NCBI RefSeq assembly: GCF_011300455.1
Contig: NZ_CP049869.1
Location: forward strand, 1,488,001-1,552,000
Direction: 5' to 3'
DNA length: 64,000 bases
Source: Sphingomonas piscis
GTDB taxonomy: Bacteria; Pseudomonadota; Alphaproteobacteria; Sphingomonadales; Sphingomonadaceae
Shown here: positions 3,407 through 11,170 of the stretch, one piece after another
Numbering within the stretch: the first letter of the stretch is position 1
Layout of the letters: each line of letters opens with the position of its first letter
The notes under the pieces: generated by a model
Seen by the model: only the letters and a program-made list of their open reading frames with translations
Databases searched by the model: none
Told to the model about the DNA's origin: nothing
Made by a program: the position numbers and the translations under genes

Positions 3407-3445
3407 TTGACGGTGCTACAAATGTAGCGCAAGCTACAAATGTAG
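3407..3445 (+). promoter_or_regulatory. Twin BlaI-type operators upstream of blaI
   Basis: Two identical copies of CTACAAATGTAG lie at 3416-3427 and 3434-3445, 18 bp apart centre to centre. Each matches the TACAnnTGTA core bound by BlaI/MecI/CopY repressors. A TTGACG hexamer at 3407-3412 is a candidate -35 element just upstream. No good -10 hexamer stands out, so the exact promoter is uncertain. The second operator ends 18 bp before the blaI start. The natural reading is autorepression of the blaI-M56 operon with side-by-side dimer binding. Confidence 0.85.
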
Positions 3446-3463
3446 CGTCAGAAAGGCTCTTGC

Positions 3464-3847
3464 GTGCTCAACAAGCTTCCTCCCCGTGAACGGCAGATTG
3501 TCGACCTGCTTTACCAGCGGAGCGACCTCAGCGTTGCCGAGATTTGCGAGTCCCTGCCGGATCAGCCGACCGGAGGCGCCGTGCGCACGATGCTGAAGCG
3601 ATTGGAGGACAAAGGCTGCGTCACCCGTAGCGAGTCTGATCGCGGCTTCGTCTACAGCCCCGCAGTGGCCGACACTGTCGCCCGCAAGACGGCGCTGACG
3701 GATGTCGTCAAAACCTTCTTCAACGGATCGCCGGCAAGCGCCGCAAGCGCGCTGCTGGGCATGTCCGACCGGCTCGAGACGAAGGAACTCGACGCACTGG
3801 AGCAGATGATCGCCGAAGCACGCAGGGCCAAGGGAGGCCAGGCATGA
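3464..3847 (+). CDS. BlaI/MecI/CopY family transcriptional repressor
   Basis: A 127-residue winged-helix repressor. Residues 1-75 hold the DNA-binding domain, with the LPPRERQIVDLLY opening and a TGGAVRTMLKRLEDKG recognition region, followed by a small dimerisation helix region. It is preceded by two perfect copies of the family's operator, so both partners of the repressor/operator pair are visible. The start is GTG at 3464; a weak AAAGG precedes it by 9 nt. The stop overlaps the ATG of the M56 peptidase by 4 bp (ATGA), the usual blaI-blaR arrangement. In the family, the partner peptidase triggers cleavage of BlaI to relieve repression. Whether the signal here is a beta-lactam is doubtful, because the partner lacks a penicillin-binding domain. 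Confidence 0.92.
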   Translation: MLNKLPPRERQIVDLLYQRSDLSVAEICESLPDQPTGGAVRTMLKRLEDKGCVTRSESDRGFVYSPAVADTVARKTALTDVVKTFFNGSPASAASALLGMSDRLETKELDALEQMIAEARRAKGGQA

Positions 3848-5646
3848 ACGCGCTGATCGCCATCGCTCTGAAGTCGCTAATCGTCGCCGGCTTCACCTTA
3901 CTGGCACTGCGTTTGACGCGCGGCCGGTCGGCGGCAGAGCGTTCGTGGGTGGCCCATGTCGGCCTGCTCGCGCTGATCGTTCTGCCATTCGCGCCGCTCG
4001 CGATCCCTGTCCTGCCGGTCGAGACCGCGGCGGTCGGGCAGGCGGCAGCGGCGCCGCAACAAAGCGCAGCGGCCGCGGCCCATGCCATCGCTCAAGCGAA
4101 GGTCCGGCAAGCGGTGGAGGCAGACGTTGCCGCCGCTGTGCCGGACGCAACGCTGGATACCGGCGTTACCGCGTTCGATCTCGCTTCCTACCTCTACTGG
4201 ATACCGACCGCGCTGCTGCTGGGCATCACCCTGCTTGCACTGGCGCGGCTGATCGCGCTGCGTGCGCGGGCCGAGGTCTTGGTCGACAGCCATTGGCTGA
4301 GCGCACTCGCTCGCGCCCAGAAGAGGATGGGCTTCAAGCATGGCACCGCCCTGCTGACCAGCGACGACCTTCCGTCGCCGATCAGCTGGGGGATGATGCG
4401 CCCCGTGATCCTGCTCAACTCGCGGGCCGTCGACGCGGCCGATGAGGCGGAGGCGATCATCGCGCATGAGCTCGCCCACGTGGCACGGCTCGACTGGATC
4501 AAGCTGCTTCTGGCCCGCGTCGCCACCGCCCTATTCTGGTTCAACCCATTGGTCTGGATGCTGGCCCGCGAAGCGCATCAGCTTCGGGAGGAAGCGGCCG
4601 ACGATACGGTACTCGCGGCCGACATCGAGGATACCGAATATGCCCAGCTGCTGGTCGGCATTGCCCGCCACGAGTGCAAGGGGCTGCTGATCGGTGCGCA
4701 CGGCGTCGCGCCTTCCAAGGGGTCGCTTGCCCGCCGGGTTGCGCGCGTGCTCGACAACAAAATCCCGCGCGGCCCGGTCGCAAAATCTTTTGCCGCGGGC
4801 ATCTTCGTCGGTGCGCTCGCCATGGCCACCCCGCTTGCCGCTTTGACGCTGGTTCCTGCGGGAACGAGCAAGAAGGTGGCCAACCTGCCCACTGCCGAGC
4901 AGGAAGGGCATTATTATCCCGCCGGCGGCGTTCCGCTGCCGACCACCGTCAGCGACAGCGTCAACCGTGCCGTTGCGTCAGCAGTGGCAGCGGTCGACCC
5001 ACGCATCACCGAGGCGCTTGGGCTGCAGCACGAAGCTGAGCAAACCCGCGCTGAGGCTCTGGCCGAAGCGCGCGCCGCCCTCGCCGAAGCGCGCTTGCAC
5101 TGGAACGGGGTTGGGCCGCGACCGGGCAGTGTCGGTCCGCAGGGTCCGGTCGGACCGCAGGTGAAGGCGGGCCGGCACGACCAGGACGACGCGATCGAGG
5201 AGGCCATCGCAATGAAGGCACTCAACGTCACGCCGGAGTATGCTTCGTCGCTCCGGAATGTGTCCCCGCACCTTGGACCTCTCACCAACGAGGATCTGAT
5301 CGAGATGAGGGCGGTCGGAGTAACCCCCGCCTACATCAAGGAGATTGCCGAGTCCGGCTATCGCAACCTCGACAAGGAAAGCCTTATCGAACTGCGCGCC
5401 TTGAACGTTCGCGGTCGTTACATTCGCGCGCTTGCCCAGGAAGGCTACGGCAATTTGTCGTCCGATACCCTGGTCGAAATGAGGGCCGTGGGAGTCACGC
5501 CAAACCTTATCCGGCGGCTGAAACGAGAAGGTTACCCGCGGCTGACGCCGGATCAGTTGGTGGGAATGGCGGCCGTCAGCGGAACGCCAACCGCACCGGA
5601 TCCACCGGAACCGCCAGACGATGATGAAAACGACGACGACCACTGA
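3844..5646 (+). CDS. M56 (BlaR1-like) membrane metallopeptidase with C-terminal 29-residue repeats
   Basis: A 600-residue integral membrane zinc protease. Hydrophobic helices occur near the N-terminus (about 5-25 and 35-60) and near 120-140. The zinc motif HELAH sits at residues 208-212, with the third-ligand region REEAADD around 248-254, and another membrane segment follows at about 315-337. The extracytoplasmic C-terminus is not a transpeptidase-like penicillin sensor. It has an Ala/Glu-rich helix (about 385-420), a short Gly-Pro stretch (GPQGPVGPQ), then roughly four copies of a 29-residue repeat from residue 457 to 580 with a consensus like RAxGVTPxYIxxLxxxGY. An acidic tail ends the protein. 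It overlaps blaI by 4 bp. The repeats recur in the next gene, suggesting a shared ligand or direct interaction; that is inference. Confidence 0.88.
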   Translation: MNALIAIALKSLIVAGFTLLALRLTRGRSAAERSWVAHVGLLALIVLPFAPLAIPVLPVETAAVGQAAAAPQQSAAAAAHAIAQAKVRQAVEADVAAAVPDATLDTGVTAFDLASYLYWIPTALLLGITLLALARLIALRARAEVLVDSHWLSALARAQKRMGFKHGTALLTSDDLPSPISWGMMRPVILLNSRAVDAADEAEAIIAHELAHVARLDWIKLLLARVATALFWFNPLVWMLAREAHQLREEAADDTVLAADIEDTEYAQLLVGIARHECKGLLIGAHGVAPSKGSLARRVARVLDNKIPRGPVAKSFAAGIFVGALAMATPLAALTLVPAGTSKKVANLPTAEQEGHYYPAGGVPLPTTVSDSVNRAVASAVAAVDPRITEALGLQHEAEQTRAEALAEARAALAEARLHWNGVGPRPGSVGPQGPVGPQVKAGRHDQDDAIEEAIAMKALNVTPEYASSLRNVSPHLGPLTNEDLIEMRAVGVTPAYIKEIAESGYRNLDKESLIELRALNVRGRYIRALAQEGYGNLSSDTLVEMRAVGVTPNLIRRLKREGYPRLTPDQLVGMAAVSGTPTAPDPPEPPDDDENDDDH

Positions 5647-5754
5647 GTCGACGCAGATCAACTGACCGACTGACACCAACCATCACGATCTTTTCGAACG
5701 CCCGCTCGCGGGTGGCCGGGTGAACTTTGCCCCCTGTTTCCAAGGAGAAATGCC

Positions 5755-6633
5755 ATGCGCCGCACCCTTGCTTTCATTGCAGCCCTGTTGCTCACCACCG
5801 TCGCGGTCGGTTCCGCCTGCGTGGCGATGCCCACCGAGAACATCCGCTTCTCACTGCAGCCCTCGTCACGCGCCGGAGGGGAAGTGCAGCTGACCCTTCG
5901 CAGCGGCAATGACCGGCACAACAACAACATGTCCTCCAGCTTCCCGACGTCGGAGCTCGCAGGGCTCAACAGCAACTGGACGTCGGGCGGCCCGGTAACC
6001 TTCGCCCTGGTTCGGGAGGCCGGCCGTGTGGATTGCAGCGGCGATGCCCGCGGTGCCCGTGCCGAGGGAGGCTGCCGCTTCACCGAAAATCGTGGCTTCT
6101 CCGACTTGCTCGTTCGCGCTGGAATGGCTCGGCCGACTTTGGAGGAGGCCTACGGCCTGACCATGGTCAAGGCGACCAGCGGACTTTTGGAGGCGCTCCG
6201 TGCGGCGCGCTACCCGATGCCGGAGGTCGAGGACTATATTGCCATGACGGCGGTTGGCGTGACGCCCCGCTACATCGCCGACCTTGCCGCCGCCGGCTAT
6301 CGCCCGGACGACACCAGCCGGCTGATCGAATTCGCGGCACTCAAGGTAACACCCGCATATCTCGGCCAGCTGTCGCGCGCCGGCTATGCCAACCTCCCGC
6401 AGGATGAGGTGGTACAATTGGCCGCCCTCAAGATCGACCCGGAGTTTATCCGCGGCTTCGAACGGATCGGCTACCACAATCTCGACGTCGACACCCTGGT
6501 TCAGCTGAAGGCGCTCGAGGTCACGCCACAGTTCGTGGAAGCCGTGCGCCGCGGCGGCATGGCCAATCCCACAGCCGAGCAATTGGTGCAGCTCAAAGCC
6601 ATCGGCTTCGGCGAGCCCGCCCGTCGGCGCTGA
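5755..6633 (+). CDS. Secreted protein with the same 29-residue repeats as the M56 C-terminus
   Basis: A 292-residue protein with a signal peptide (MRRTLAFIAALLLTTVAVGS, then an Ala/Cys region). A non-repetitive region (about 25-130) includes GGEVQLTLRS, a stretch common in secreted hypothetical proteins. From residue about 135, and clearly from 164 to 285, it consists of 29-residue helical repeats of the form ALKVTPAYLGQLSRAGY followed by an NL-xx-D-x-L-V-x-L segment. An AAGGAG ribosome-binding site at 5742-5747 lies 7 nt before the ATG. It follows the peptidase gene by 108 bp on the same strand, so it may share the BlaI-controlled transcript. No enzymatic motif is visible. It is probably periplasmic, possibly a partner or decoy for the peptidase's sensor domain. 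Confidence 0.8.
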   Translation: MRRTLAFIAALLLTTVAVGSACVAMPTENIRFSLQPSSRAGGEVQLTLRSGNDRHNNNMSSSFPTSELAGLNSNWTSGGPVTFALVREAGRVDCSGDARGARAEGGCRFTENRGFSDLLVRAGMARPTLEEAYGLTMVKATSGLLEALRAARYPMPEVEDYIAMTAVGVTPRYIADLAAAGYRPDDTSRLIEFAALKVTPAYLGQLSRAGYANLPQDEVVQLAALKIDPEFIRGFERIGYHNLDVDTLVQLKALEVTPQFVEAVRRGGMANPTAEQLVQLKAIGFGEPARRR

Positions 6634-6693
6634 ACTGCCGTTCGCCGAATCGCGGATTGAGCGCCGCAGTTCGTCGAAAAACACGTGACACAG

Positions 6694-6713
6694 TGTATTA
6701 CATCGACAATACA
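6694..6713 (+). promoter_or_regulatory. Inverted repeat upstream of TonB-dependent receptor
   Basis: TGTATT at 6694-6699 and AATACA at 6708-6713 form a perfect 6-bp inverted repeat with an 8-bp spacer, 24 bp before the receptor start. It is AT-rich in a GC-rich genome and lies where a promoter or repressor site would be expected. It does not match the BlaI operators upstream. The regulator is unknown. Confidence 0.45.
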
Positions 6714-6737
6714 GTTAGACAGACAGGGGAGTTCAAC

Positions 6738-8840
6738 ATGTTCGTAATGCGTCGCCGTCGCCTTCTCTTGGCCGGCATTGCTCTTCTGTCTCCGTTTCCG
6801 GCGCTGGCGCAAACCGCACCGGCGACGGCGGATCCCGCCGTGGTCCCACCCCCTCAGGCGACCACGGCGGGTACCAAACGGGTCTATTCGCCCGCCGACT
6901 TCGCGCGCTATGCGCCGAAAAGCGCCTACGACATCCTGGTGCAGGTGCCGAGCTTCTCCATCAAGGAGGCAGAGCAGGAGCGCGGCCTCGGCCAAGCGTC
7001 GGAAAACGTGCTGATCAACGGGCAGCGCAGCGCAAACAAGGCCGGAGGCGGTGCCATCGACGAACTTCGCAAGACACCCGTTGCAAACGTGGAGCGGATC
7101 GAGATCGTCGACGCGGCAAGCCTCGGCATCGCCGGGCTTTCCGGACAGGTCGCTAACATCATCGTCAACCGAGGCGCGAAGGGCAGCGGGCAGTTCGAGT
7201 GGAACCCCGATATCCGCGCCCACTATACGAAGGCCAACCTGCTACAGGGCAACGTCAGCTATTCCGGCAAGTCGGGTCCGGTCGACTACACCCTTGCGGT
7301 AAAGAACGACACCGGACGCGGCGGCTTTGGCGGACCCATCCGTATCTACGAGCCTGACGGAACACTCCGCGAAGCGCGGGATGAAGTTTACCACGGCGAA
7401 AGCTCGCTGGTGACTTTCTCCGGCAAGTTTGGGCTCGACGGACCGGGCTCGTCGATCGGCAACCTGCTGCTGGCCTACACGCCTTATTGGGCGCCGTCGT
7501 TCCAAGGTTACCGCCGCACCCGCGCGGACGGGAAGGACGGCCGGGTAACAAATCGCACCAAGCTGTCTGGCTGGTACTACGACGTGAACGGCGACTATGA
7601 ATTTGCGCTTGGGCCAGGACGGCTGAAGCTCATCGGAGTCCGGCACTTCGATCATGAACCGATCATCAGCCGGCAACGTATTGAGCTGGACAGTGGCGCA
7701 CCAGACCAGCTCACTCGTTTCGACCGCGACTCGCGGATCGGCGAGACCGTTGCGCGCAGTGAGTACCGCTGGAAGACCGGCCGTAACGACTGGCAGGTGT
7801 CGCTCGAACGCGCGTTTAATTCTCTCGATCAGCGCGGAGCCTATTTCCAGTCCGATGCTGGCGGCGTCTTGCAGCCTGTCGATTTGCCCGGGCTTACCGG
7901 CAACGTTCAAGAAGTCCGCTATGAAGGCATCGTGACGCTCAGCCGTCCGCTCAGCCCCAAGCTCGACCTACAGGTCGACGGCGGTGGTGAAATCTCACGG
8001 CTTGAGCGCGTGGACGGCGACCTCCCCGCCCGCAAATTCTTCCGCCCCAAGGGAAGCATCACCCTGGGATGGCGGCCTGCGGCCGGCTGGGACGCAAGCC
8101 TGAAGCTTCGCCGCCGCGTCGGCCAAATCAGCTTCTACGACTTCCTCGATCAGCCGAACCTTCAGTCCGAGCGCGAGAATAGCGGCAACCCCGATCTGGT
8201 CCCGCCGCAAAGCTGGGAGCTCGAGACGGAAGTCGGGCGTGAGCTTGGCGCCTGGGGCAAGACCCGGCTCCGCGCCTATGCGCACCGCATCGACGACATC
8301 ATCGACGTTGTCCCGATCGGCGAAGACAGCGAGGGCGTCGGCAACTTGCCGCGCGCGACGCGTTTCGGTTTCGAAAGCGTCAGCACAATCCAGTTCGACC
8401 CGATCGGCTGGACCGGCGCCAAGCTCGATGCGACCTTCGGTGCCGAACGGACCCGGGTGAAAGACCCGCTCACGGGCGAAGACCGCTCTATCAGCGGTAC
8501 CCGCGACCGGTGGATGAACCTGCAACTGCGTCACGACATTCCGCGCAGCGATTGGGCATACGGCGGCAGCGTAAATTACGATCACTACACGCCATATTTC
8601 CGGCTGACGGAGGTCTATCGCAGCTGGGAAGGACCGTGGTGGTTTGGCGCTTTCGTCGAGAACAAGGACGTCATGGGCCTGACCGTCCGTGCCGAAGTGT
8701 CCAACATCTTCAACGCACGTCACCGCCTGGAGCGAGTGAATTACAGCGGTTACCGCGACGCCTTCCCGATCTCGAGCCGGCAGAGCAACAACCAGCTGAT
8801 CGGGCCGATCTTCGAACTGCTGGTGAAGGGGACCTTCTAG
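6738..8840 (+). CDS. TonB-dependent receptor
   Basis: A complete 700-residue outer-membrane receptor. The chosen ATG at 6738 has an AGGGGAG ribosome-binding site 6 nt upstream and gives a signal peptide (MFVMRRRRLLLAGIALL, cleaved after ALAQ). The plug domain (about 45-170) carries SAYDILVQVPSF, NVLINGQRSANK and VERIEIVDAAS; the last two are the classic plug core. The rest is a 22-strand-type barrel ending LLVKGTF with the terminal Phe. The sequence type is a sphingomonad-rich subgroup of unknown substrate. The stop overlaps the convergent GGDEF/EAL gene by 4 bp. It lies 104 bp downstream of the secreted repeat protein, with its own candidate control region in between. Confidence 0.93.
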   Translation: MFVMRRRRLLLAGIALLSPFPALAQTAPATADPAVVPPPQATTAGTKRVYSPADFARYAPKSAYDILVQVPSFSIKEAEQERGLGQASENVLINGQRSANKAGGGAIDELRKTPVANVERIEIVDAASLGIAGLSGQVANIIVNRGAKGSGQFEWNPDIRAHYTKANLLQGNVSYSGKSGPVDYTLAVKNDTGRGGFGGPIRIYEPDGTLREARDEVYHGESSLVTFSGKFGLDGPGSSIGNLLLAYTPYWAPSFQGYRRTRADGKDGRVTNRTKLSGWYYDVNGDYEFALGPGRLKLIGVRHFDHEPIISRQRIELDSGAPDQLTRFDRDSRIGETVARSEYRWKTGRNDWQVSLERAFNSLDQRGAYFQSDAGGVLQPVDLPGLTGNVQEVRYEGIVTLSRPLSPKLDLQVDGGGEISRLERVDGDLPARKFFRPKGSITLGWRPAAGWDASLKLRRRVGQISFYDFLDQPNLQSERENSGNPDLVPPQSWELETEVGRELGAWGKTRLRAYAHRIDDIIDVVPIGEDSEGVGNLPRATRFGFESVSTIQFDPIGWTGAKLDATFGAERTRVKDPLTGEDRSISGTRDRWMNLQLRHDIPRSDWAYGGSVNYDHYTPYFRLTEVYRSWEGPWWFGAFVENKDVMGLTVRAEVSNIFNARHRLERVNYSGYRDAFPISSRQSNNQLIGPIFELLVKGTF

Positions 8841-11170
8841 GCGATCATCCGCCGGGCGGAGAGGCCGAGCACCATTTCGTTGGCGCGCTCGAAGGAGAGC
8901 GGACGGCCGAAGAGATAGCCCTGGATGACGTCGCAGCCGAGTTCGCGCATGCGTTCGAAATCCTCGGCTGTTTCGACACCCTCGGCGGTGACCGTCATCC
9001 GGAAGCTCTTGGCGAGCTGGACGATCGACTGGATGATGGCGAGGTTTTCCGGACGCGTACCGGCCTCGCGAACGAAGCTGCCGTCGATCTTCAGCTTGTG
9101 GAACACGGCCTTGTTCAAATAGCCGATCGACGAATAGCCGGTGCCGAAATCGTCGAGCGCGATGCCGACACCGAGCTGCCGCAGGCGCTTGAGGACGTCG
9201 AGCGTGCTGCCCTTGTCGCCGAGGAAAATGCCTTCCGTGACCTCCAGCTCCAGGCGGTTGCCGGGAAGCTTGTAGCGCGCGAGGCATTGGCTGACGGTGT
9301 TGGGCAGCGCCGGCATGACGATCTGTTTGGGGCTGACGTTCAGGGCGACGGTGATAGGCTCCGGCCAGGACGCGGCAACGCGGCATGATTCTTCGATGAC
9401 CCACTCGCCGATCGAGGTCATCAGCCCGATTTCCTCGGCCACCGGGATGAAAACGTTGGGCGGGACGAAGCCGCGCTGCGGGTGGTTCCAGCGGATGAGC
9501 GCCTCGAAGCCGACGAGCTTCTGGTCCTTGGCTGCGACCAGCGGCTGAAAGACCAGGTGGAACTGCTTGGCGGCGACGGCCTGCCGCAGGTCGTTCTCGA
9601 ACCGGACGCGATCTTCCTGCTCCGACTGAAGCTCGGAGGAGAAATAGCGGGCAATGCCGCGGCCGGCGCCCTTGGCTTCGTAGAGCGCCAGATCGGCCTT
9701 GAGGATCAGGTCATCGACCGTCGCCCCATCGATCGGGCCGAAGGCACAACCGATCGACACGCCGATCCGGATTTCCGTCTGGTCGATGAGATAAGGTTCC
9801 TTGATCGCCACGATGATCCGGTCCGCAAGCTGCTCGACCTTGCGGCGGCTCTGCGCGTCGGTGATGACGATGGCGAACTCGTCGCCGCCCATTCGGCCGA
9901 CGTGGCCGTCGCCGGCGACTTCGTCGACCAGGCGCTTGGCGACCGCCTGCAGCACGGCATCGCCCTTGGGATGACCGAAGGTGTCGTTGACCGGCTTGAA
10001 GCCGTCCAGGTCGAGAAACATGATCGCACAGGGCACATTGCTGGTCGTCGCAGTGCGCAAGGATTCGCCGAGGAGTTGCCGCACCCGGCCCCGGTTCGGC
10101 AGTCCCGAGAGCACGTCGACATTGGCGAGGTGGCGGAGCCGTTCCTGGCTTTGACGGACCTCGGTAATGTCCGTGCCGACGCCGCGGAAGCCGTCGAACC
10201 GGCCCGCGGTATCGATAATCGGATCGCCGGCCATGGAGATCCATCGCGCGCCGCGGGCGGTCTGCACCTCCATCTCGAGTGAGGCGAACGGCACCTTTTC
10301 GAGCAGGCGGCGGCCAAGCTCGGCATTTCCGCCGAGCAGGGAGGGAAGGGAATGGCCGACCAGCTGACTCGCGGGACGGCCAAGCAGCGCCACCATCCGC
10401 GACGAGATGTAGGTCAGGCGATTGTCGGCATCGACCTGCCACAGCCAACCGACGCCGCGTTGCTCATATTCCTGGAGCAACAGGCTGGCGCTTTCGCTCT
10501 GGGTGCCGGCTTCGGCATTGGTCTTGAGCTGGTGAAAAGCCCAGCGCGCAACGGTGAGCACACCAAAGATCGCGACGCCCATGGTGAAGAGGATCGAGAG
10601 CATGTTCGGAACAGGAACGGCGGTGCCGCCGAGCAGCAGTGCACCGCACAGACCGACGGTAAAGGCGCTCATCCAGGCGATCGCGCAGGGCGGAACCACG
10701 ACCAATCCAAGACCGCCAATGGCAAGGCCGGCAATGATGGAGGCGGCAATCACCTGCGTGTCCGCGTCGACGGAGGTGAACAGGTAGATCGGCAGCGACA
10801 GCCACACTACCGCCCGAAGCAGGACTTCGCCGATCAGCTGCCATTGCGGTAGCTTTCTCCCCGAGCGGCCGACATGGGTGACGGCCTGCGTACGGGCGAT
10901 CTGCATCGCGAGGAGGTTGAGCCCGCCTACCGCGGCGAGCCAGCCGCCGATCCATGCGACGGGCGCCTTGTCCCACAGGGCCGCGGCGAGCATCGCGGAG
11001 GCGACTATGTTGGCGGCGGCGAAGAAGGGGGCGAGCTGGGCGCGCGAGATCAGCTGAACGTCGCGCAGCGGGGAGGCATCGTCCTTGCTTTCCGACGTGA
11101 CCGCCATCGACTCACCGTCGGGCAGCCGCGCCGCAATCATTCTCTTGTACCGATCCGGTGCCTCGTACAT
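8837..11170 (-). CDS. Membrane PAS-GGDEF-EAL cyclic-di-GMP enzyme
   Basis: A 777-residue bifunctional-type protein. An N-terminal membrane region with five or six helices (about 45-215) is followed by a PAS domain (about 238-340), a GGDEF domain and an EAL domain. The cyclase signature GGDEF is intact at 428-432. The inhibitory RxxD site is missing from its usual position just upstream. The phosphodiesterase domain keeps EAL at 556-558, a DDFGTGYSS loop, the KID motif and an AEGVET segment, so hydrolysis of c-di-GMP is plausible. The membrane region is probably a sensory input, and PAS may tune the output. The net activity cannot be predicted. Its 3' end overlaps the receptor gene tail to tail by 4 bp. 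Confidence 0.93.
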   Translation of the reverse strand: MYEAPDRYKRMIAARLPDGESMAVTSESKDDASPLRDVQLISRAQLAPFFAAANIVASAMLAAALWDKAPVAWIGGWLAAVGGLNLLAMQIARTQAVTHVGRSGRKLPQWQLIGEVLLRAVVWLSLPIYLFTSVDADTQVIAASIIAGLAIGGLGLVVVPPCAIAWMSAFTVGLCGALLLGGTAVPVPNMLSILFTMGVAIFGVLTVARWAFHQLKTNAEAGTQSESASLLLQEYEQRGVGWLWQVDADNRLTYISSRMVALLGRPASQLVGHSLPSLLGGNAELGRRLLEKVPFASLEMEVQTARGARWISMAGDPIIDTAGRFDGFRGVGTDITEVRQSQERLRHLANVDVLSGLPNRGRVRQLLGESLRTATTSNVPCAIMFLDLDGFKPVNDTFGHPKGDAVLQAVAKRLVDEVAGDGHVGRMGGDEFAIVITDAQSRRKVEQLADRIIVAIKEPYLIDQTEIRIGVSIGCAFGPIDGATVDDLILKADLALYEAKGAGRGIARYFSSELQSEQEDRVRFENDLRQAVAAKQFHLVFQPLVAAKDQKLVGFEALIRWNHPQRGFVPPNVFIPVAEEIGLMTSIGEWVIEESCRVAASWPEPITVALNVSPKQIVMPALPNTVSQCLARYKLPGNRLELEVTEGIFLGDKGSTLDVLKRLRQLGVGIALDDFGTGYSSIGYLNKAVFHKLKIDGSFVREAGTRPENLAIIQSIVQLAKSFRMTVTAEGVETAEDFERMRELGCDVIQGYLFGRPLSFERANEMVLGLSARRMIA

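Follow-up and report, generated by a model that had tools for sequence, protein, structure and literature searches.

The stretch of Sphingomonas piscis DNA analysed here, referred to as the window, is 64,000 nucleotides long (contig NZ_CP049869.1, positions 1,488,001 to 1,552,000) and belongs to a genome made of a single contig of 2.72 Mb. We examined in it a gene pair encoding a BlaI-type repressor and an M56 membrane metalloprotease, together with the genes that follow. The unit at this locus is a four-gene cassette (3464-8840, in window coordinates) composed of blaI, the M56 gene, a gene for a secreted repeat protein and a gene for a TonB-dependent receptor (TBDR). We propose, with a probability of about 0.6, that it represents a proteolytic BlaI/M56 switch that has been redirected from beta-lactam resistance to the control of the TBDR and a few other envelope proteins. 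A first-pass annotation of this DNA had described the first three genes; it missed the TBDR, which is a further partner, and the BlaI-type operators, and these two are more informative on the output of the system than the repeats are. Genes are greedy open reading frame (ORF) calls verified with purpose-built hidden Markov models (HMMs), and signal peptides were judged by eye. The features of the locus are as follows.

3415..3428, no strand: operator half O1, palindrome GCTACAAATGTAGC, exact match.
3433..3446, no strand: operator half O2, palindrome GCTACAAATGTAGC, exact match.
3464..3847, + strand: blaI, BlaI/MecI-type winged-helix repressor, 127 amino acids (PF03965, E 1e-20; PDB BlaI 1sd4, E 0.0017).
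3844..5646, + strand: M56 membrane metalloprotease, 600 amino acids (PF05569, E 2e-32; top Foldseek match S. aureus BlaR1 8exq, E 8e-6).
4465..4479, + strand: HELAH zinc motif of M56, residues 208-212 (alignment of 62 sequences).
5209..5562, + strand: M56 repeat region, residues 456-573, a predicted periplasmic helical solenoid (repeat HMM and AlphaFold; periplasmic side deduced from BlaR1 topology).
5755..6633, + strand: secreted protein, 292 amino acids, with a signal peptide (about residues 1-24, by eye), a REAG beta domain and a solenoid.
5836..6138, + strand: REAG beta domain of the secreted protein, residues 28-128.
6241..6588, + strand: secreted-protein repeat region, residues 163-278.
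6738..8840, + strand: TBDR (the ORF opens at 6657; likely ATG at 6738; PF07715 Plug, E 5e-6).

The first two genes, whose reading frames share a 4-bp overlap, encode a repressor with a Penicillinase_R domain (PF03965, 74.3 bits; cut-off 22.6) and a protease with a Peptidase_M56 domain (PF05569, 112.9 bits; cut-off 31). In an alignment of 62 sequences, residues H208, E209, H212, E249, D253 and Y266 of the protease do not vary, and at least 90% of the sequences have D217. PMC9834060 gives H201EXXH, E242XXXD, Asp210 and Tyr261 as the BlaR1 counterparts. Judged from these alignments, the M56 active site is complete and agrees with the BlaR1 gluzincin signature (HELAH, E249xxxD253, D217, Y266). The AlphaFold model places helices at residues 2-24, 30-53, 110-142 and 314-333, the protease between them, and a hairpin solenoid at 444-579, in which the 10-residue blocks from 461 to 570 have pLDDT values of 95-97. 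These four predicted helices are compatible with a BlaR1-like layout, in which four membrane helices surround a cytoplasmic protease, at a whole-model TM-score to BlaR1 of just about 0.3. In line with the first-pass annotation, no penicillin-binding sensor was found: neither Pfam nor NCBIfam returned a penicillin-binding or transpeptidase family at the M56 C-terminus at E<=1, and the NCBIfam model blaR1_generic scored 72 bits (cut-off 400), spanning residues 11-302 only. A function as beta-lactam receptor was rejected for this protein, since no penicillin-binding sensor domain with an SxxK motif was found in these searches. By both sequence and model, the predicted periplasmic domain is a solenoid of helical hairpins and not of the penicillin-binding type.

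The solenoid is made of a 29-residue repeat that recurs in the neighbouring secreted protein. When the three clean M56 repeats were made into an HMM, it detected the secreted protein (E 1e-22, 76 bits), and the reciprocal HMM, built from the four repeats of the secreted protein, detected M56 (E 4e-27, 90 bits). Among 2000 shuffled controls, the top score was 10.6 bits with the M56-repeat HMM and 9.7 bits with the secreted-repeat HMM. The two repeat sets are homologous, which bears out the central claim of the earlier annotation, and chance resemblance was rejected because the true scores far exceed those of the shuffles. About four M56 copies had been placed at residues 457-580; three are indeed clean (487-573), and the fourth (about 456-484) is degenerate, with 6 of 29 residues identical to each other M56 copy. 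The four copies assigned to the secreted protein (then 164-285) were recovered at 163-278, and AlphaFold adds earlier degenerate hairpins from about residue 113. In the AlphaFold models, both repeat regions form helical-hairpin solenoids. An iterated repeat HMM built on 1153 segments (consensus ELKAVGVTPEYIRALRRAGYRNLSVDDLV) found, among the matches listed, 4-8 copies in each of 120 secreted homologues and 3-11 copies in each of 120 M56 proteins. A protein database assigns PF27122 to four repeat-bearing M56 proteins (P0158, P0171, P0181, P0219); in the Pfam search made here, P0158 and P0171 gave no match to this family.

We then compared 24 loci in which blaI accompanies a repeat-bearing M56 gene (the window, L003, L004, L006-L009, L014-L021, L033, L034, L037-L040 and L042-L044) with 26 control loci in which the blaI-M56 pair is repeat-less (L022-L027, L045-L064); L005, L010 and L075, cut by contig ends, were left out of the 24. 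An intact REAG-repeat gene directly follows the M56 gene in 19 of the 24 loci, and a broken one, scored as a miss, in L042. The secreted gene is thus kept beside blaI-M56 in relatives, as the earlier proposal implied. The TBDR is the first or second gene downstream of M56 in 17 loci and is absent from these positions in L006, L008, L015, L020, L033, L038 and L042, L020 being scored as a miss with less than 700 bp beyond its secreted gene. None of the 26 controls has an adjoining secreted gene or a TBDR in the first two downstream positions, and one of them, L022, has an opposite-strand TBDR upstream. The collection is biased towards loci that contain the secreted gene, since the 24 loci were retrieved by means of a secreted-protein profile and, for L003, L004 and L006-L009, a direct search with the secreted protein. 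Without those six loci, the intact secreted gene and the TBDR are each found in 13 of 18. Moreover, the large genome searches scored few candidates per genome, and their tallies are therefore lower bounds.

In a tree of 73 M56 domains, computed without L042 and carrying a long-branch warning, 19 repeat-bearing locus proteins form one clade (100/99) with the repeat-less L022 and with P0211, and L014, L015, L020 and L033 fall outside it. Eighteen of the 20 clade loci (the 19 repeat-bearing ones and L022) have an intact secreted neighbour, the exceptions being L016 and L022. L014 and L015 represent a second repeat-bearing M56 lineage, and a similar gene, for a membrane-protein-like product of 334-337 amino acids, precedes blaI in both.

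The secreted protein itself matched no Pfam family at E<=1. Its AlphaFold model (mean pLDDT 90.1) comprises a signal helix, a six-stranded beta domain (30-111) and hairpins (113-282), and Foldseek found no structure match at E<=0.001 from which a known fold could be assigned. C94 and C107 are invariant in 20 secreted homologues and conserved in at least 90% of 66. A predicted hairpin of strands 90-99 and 102-111 brings them face to face, which makes a C94-C107 disulphide plausible. With a REAG HMM built from the secreted homologues, this domain was detected (E about 1e-11 or lower) in 6 of the 120 M56 proteins listed, where it separates the protease from the repeats. A search with that REAG-bearing region of one of these proteins, P0214, returned 40 proteins, P0214 and 39 new ones; all 39 have REAG (for which the query selects), PF05569 and at least two repeats, which brings the M56-REAG-repeat fusions to 45 proteins (6 + 39). 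Those with genus names come from Puia, Flavitalea, Mucilaginibacter and Arcticibacter, all Bacteroidota. Because the REAG domain sits inside the M56 protein in these 45 fusions, the secreted protein looks like a free-standing form of a sensor that is built into M56 elsewhere. One may argue instead that it is an accessory of the TBDR, acting in ligand capture or periplasmic hand-over, and has its solenoid in common with M56 only through binding of the same ligand. The gene order agrees with such a role, the secreted gene lying between M56 and TBDR and its stop codon overlapping the TBDR start by 4 bp in L018 and L019, as does the existence of secreted homologues without M56. However, the listed neighbours of the seven orphan genes do not include a TBDR, and the fusions make REAG part of the M56 protein itself; we consider this explanation unlikely, if worth keeping in mind.

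The operators give further indications of the output. Two exact GCTACAAATGTAGC palindromes lie 18 bp apart upstream of the window blaI, with TACAnnTGTA copies at 3416-3427 and 3434-3445. The staphylococcal BlaI/MecI operator is an inverted repeat of the TACAnnTGTA type. In the searched stretch preceding blaI, 22 of the 24 cassettes and 9 of the 26 controls have such a dyad. A strict tandem pattern, CTACANNNGTAG-N2-8-CTACNNNTGTAG, matched 21 of 30 genomes (reversed control, 0 of 30), and a looser one, CTACNNNNGTAG-N2-8-CTACNNNNGTAG, gave 29 sites in 23 of 31 genomes (reversed control, 2 sites). Twenty-two of the 29 tandem sites are at blaI promoters, one of which (L027) goes with a repeat-less M56, and seven are elsewhere. 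The window genome (G000) has the arrangement twice, at the cassette and at G000:C1:505590-505617, against none for the reversed control. Three of these second sites precede TBDR genes: one in G1080, 12 bp from the ORF start, one in G1082, at 36 bp, and one in G012, 27 bp from the gene for a TBDR of the second subfamily. Two precede genes for DUF2807 proteins; that of G000 is 4 bp from the ORF start and 28 bp from the next ATG, and that of G191 is 26 bp from the likely ATG. The remaining two, 22 bp away in G1077 and 15 bp away in G1079, precede genes for PF00144 hydrolases. With signal peptides judged by eye, the products of all seven genes appear to be exported or outer-membrane proteins. Most informative are G1080 (L006) and G1082 (L008), whose cassettes have no adjacent window-type TBDR; each of these genomes has one elsewhere, 62% and 59% identical, respectively, and located behind a tandem operator. 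Because these dispersed operator-TBDR pairs are independent of gene adjacency, they point to the TBDR as a real BlaI target.

These observations also bear on the idea that M56 and its neighbour gained a common helical repeat independently and that the cluster is hitch-hiking, without joint function. The repeat module is not rare, being present in 120 M56-type proteins from several phyla among the matches listed, and close kin among the 24 loci, such as L019 and L034 with 97% M56 identity, inflate the counts. Nevertheless, the control loci lack both partners (0/26), the dispersed TBDRs keep the operator and the fusion proteins join the same two domains, so that we regard independent gain as highly improbable.

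The PF00144 targets raise another issue, namely that the system could still be a cell-wall damage sensor akin to BlaR1, with a solenoid responding to peptidoglycan fragments or wall-bound proteins and an output that includes a penicillin-recognising enzyme. The tandem operators 22 and 15 bp upstream of the PF00144 genes in G1077 and G1079 fit this proposal, and the best NCBIfam match of both proteins is AmpH (89 and 95 bits; cut-off 266), PBP4B and class C beta-lactamase being weaker. Such targets were nonetheless seen in just 2 of the 31 genomes, a TBDR is the chief conserved output and no penicillin-binding sensor domain was found in M56, which makes a wall sensor of this kind improbable. 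Together with the DUF2807 targets, these PF00144/AmpH-like ones suggest that the common theme is the envelope and not one particular nutrient. The second operator of G000 (8591-8618 in L071, G000:C1:497000-514000) lies between the DUF2807 gene and a divergent M20 hydrolase gene 55 bp away. The genes after the latter resemble, by eye, arginine-succinylation enzymes, and may also be BlaI-controlled.

The window TBDR has a Plug domain (PF07715, 27.4 bits; cut-off 23.9), and the barrel model PF14905 matched some relatives only. The receptor of L014 is of a different kind (PF00593), and that of L007 belongs to a second subfamily, 25.7% identical to the window's. Clues to the substrate were sought in PDB, without any sequence match at E<=0.1, and in NCBIfam, where TonB-B12 gave a weak 36.5 bits (cut-off 599.7). 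The stretch separating the genes for the secreted protein and the TBDR contains, at 6684-6706, an imperfect palindrome, TGTATT...AATACA; it is unlike the BlaI operator and may be a separate control site of the TBDR.

Several results weigh against the proposed switch. At E<=1e-100, the TBDR family is present in 168 of 397 family genomes, compared with A1 matches in 24 of 397, and the hypothesis of a receptor exclusive to the cassette was rejected on this count. Twelve such TBDR loci (10 from genomes without an A1 match and two from the cassette genomes G946 and G950) have no CTACn4GTAG dyad in the fetched stretch and no annotated BlaI, M56 or REAG neighbour. Since the TBDR family is widespread and these 12 loci have neither operator dyad nor such neighbours, the cassette is best seen as an add-on to a common receptor family. 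Four of the 24 repeat-bearing M56 genes (L014, L015, L016 and L033) have no adjoining secreted gene, and seven secreted homologues (L011-L013, L032, L035, L036 and L041) have no M56 nearby. The signalling couple proposed in the first-pass annotation is favoured as a functional couple by the M56-REAG-repeat fusions, and these exceptions speak against an obligate one. Within such a couple, the secreted protein may act as a ligand or competitor of M56, as that annotation suggested. The seven orphans also lack a TBDR and a tandem operator, and six of them are from one genus (g81); they probably reflect an independent use of the secreted module. Genomes with orphan homologues (G081, G149, G884, G924, G978) have the tandem operator in 0 of 5 cases, and G101, G163 and G895, which have a repeat-bearing M56, gave no tandem match. 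In L022, whose M56 shows no repeats even at E<=10, a tandem operator lies 27 bp before a different TBDR; therefore, TBDR control does not need the repeats. Several of the seven second sites (those of G000, G1079, G1080 and G1082) lie between divergent genes, and targets were therefore assigned by nearest start. Finally, pairwise-identity correlations among six gene pairs (rho 0.62 to 0.84 over 16 loci, the highest, 0.84, being for M56 and the secreted protein) carry no species-tree control and would only fit co-inheritance.

According to the switch that we favour, BlaI would repress its own operon from the tandem palindromes (3415-3446), whose presence and conservation are observed. Upon engagement of the periplasmic solenoid, M56 would probably cleave BlaI, by analogy with BlaR1, since its zinc protease is complete and of the BlaR1 type and four membrane helices are predicted. 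In the most likely reading, the secreted protein, with a second solenoid behind its beta domain, is one half of the sensor that has become detached: in Bacteroidota the REAG domain is built into the protease, and production under BlaI control would give feedback, both of which suggest that the protein belongs to the sensing side. It may bind a periplasmic or envelope ligand, or report the state of the TBDR or the envelope, and would act on the M56 solenoid as a co-inducer or as negative feedback. The output would be derepression of the TBDR and the secreted protein and, in some genomes, of a DUF2807 protein or a PF00144 serine hydrolase. A more ambitious version, which we find possible but rather doubtful, is that of a third architecture of trans-envelope TBDR signalling, in which the secreted solenoid reports the receptor or envelope state to the M56 solenoid and M56 destroys BlaI, the sensor being split or fused across phyla.

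The cassette has in common with BlaI/BlaR1 and MecI/MecR1 of Staphylococcus a BlaI-family repressor, an adjacent M56 protease gene with the HExxH and ExxxD gluzincin signature, and a TACAnnTGTA-type inverted-repeat operator. However, the sensor of BlaR1 and MecR1 is a class-D-like penicillin-binding domain, whereas that of the window M56 is a predicted helical-repeat solenoid, and the conserved targets of the cassette are the TBDR and the secreted repeat protein. The Bacteroidota fusions contain the M56 protease, REAG and the 29-residue repeats in that order, but in a single chain; in the window, these parts are divided, the protease having repeats and the secreted protein REAG together with repeats. 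TonB-dependent cell-surface signalling (FecA-FecR-FecI), as presented in PMC7593790, is similar in that TBDR transcription responds to an envelope signal through a membrane regulator and proteolysis, but it uses an ECF sigma factor and an anti-sigma factor where the window has a repressor and an M56 protease. No signalling domain before the Plug was found in the window TBDR among Pfam matches at E<=1. In another alphaproteobacterium, Caulobacter crescentus, the YjbI/PerA system also has a secreted repeat protein governing TBDR expression; the protein is, however, a pentapeptide-repeat beta-helix working with two-component systems, and BlaI/M56 was not found in the parts of PMC12864828 consulted. 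In searches of open-licence PMC papers, no listed paper joined BlaI/M56 with a TBDR cassette or with the 29-residue repeat. Each part is of a known kind, and the combination of a solenoid sensor, a secreted partner, a TBDR output and dispersed BlaI-type operators was not found in those searches.

The first-pass annotation had also proposed a search in Caulobacterales and Xanthomonadales. A class-level sample of 337 genomes matched in G000 only, and seven of 398 phylum-level genomes matched, namely G000, G042, G155 and four without M56 or REAG that were taken as chance; no real relative thus appeared outside the family in these two samples. In the plasmid set, tblastn gave no match of the secreted protein or M56, and the fused P0214 matched six Bacteroidota plasmids over 18-21% of its length, not in the sensor part. 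Around the cassette, a gene resembling part of another TonB-dependent receptor (2-1687, by eye) and one for a chromate-transporter-family protein (PF02417, 1706-3076) lie upstream, and a convergent gene whose product resembles, by eye, a GGDEF/EAL protein (8837-11170) shares 4 bp with the end of the TBDR gene.

M56 proteases that have BlaI partners are frequent, with PF05569 present in 142 of 199 sampled family genomes, while their well-studied signal is beta-lactams. The cassette offers a defined alternative M56 sensor, a candidate partner protein, a searchable palindromic operator and a conserved TBDR output. The role of non-penicillin M56 sensors thereby becomes directly testable in culturable, non-pathogenic sphingomonads, Sphingobium nicotianae H33 and Sphingomonas hankyongi SE220 being examples of cultured carriers, and the switch proposed here would add a repressor-protease route to the known regulation of TonB-dependent uptake.

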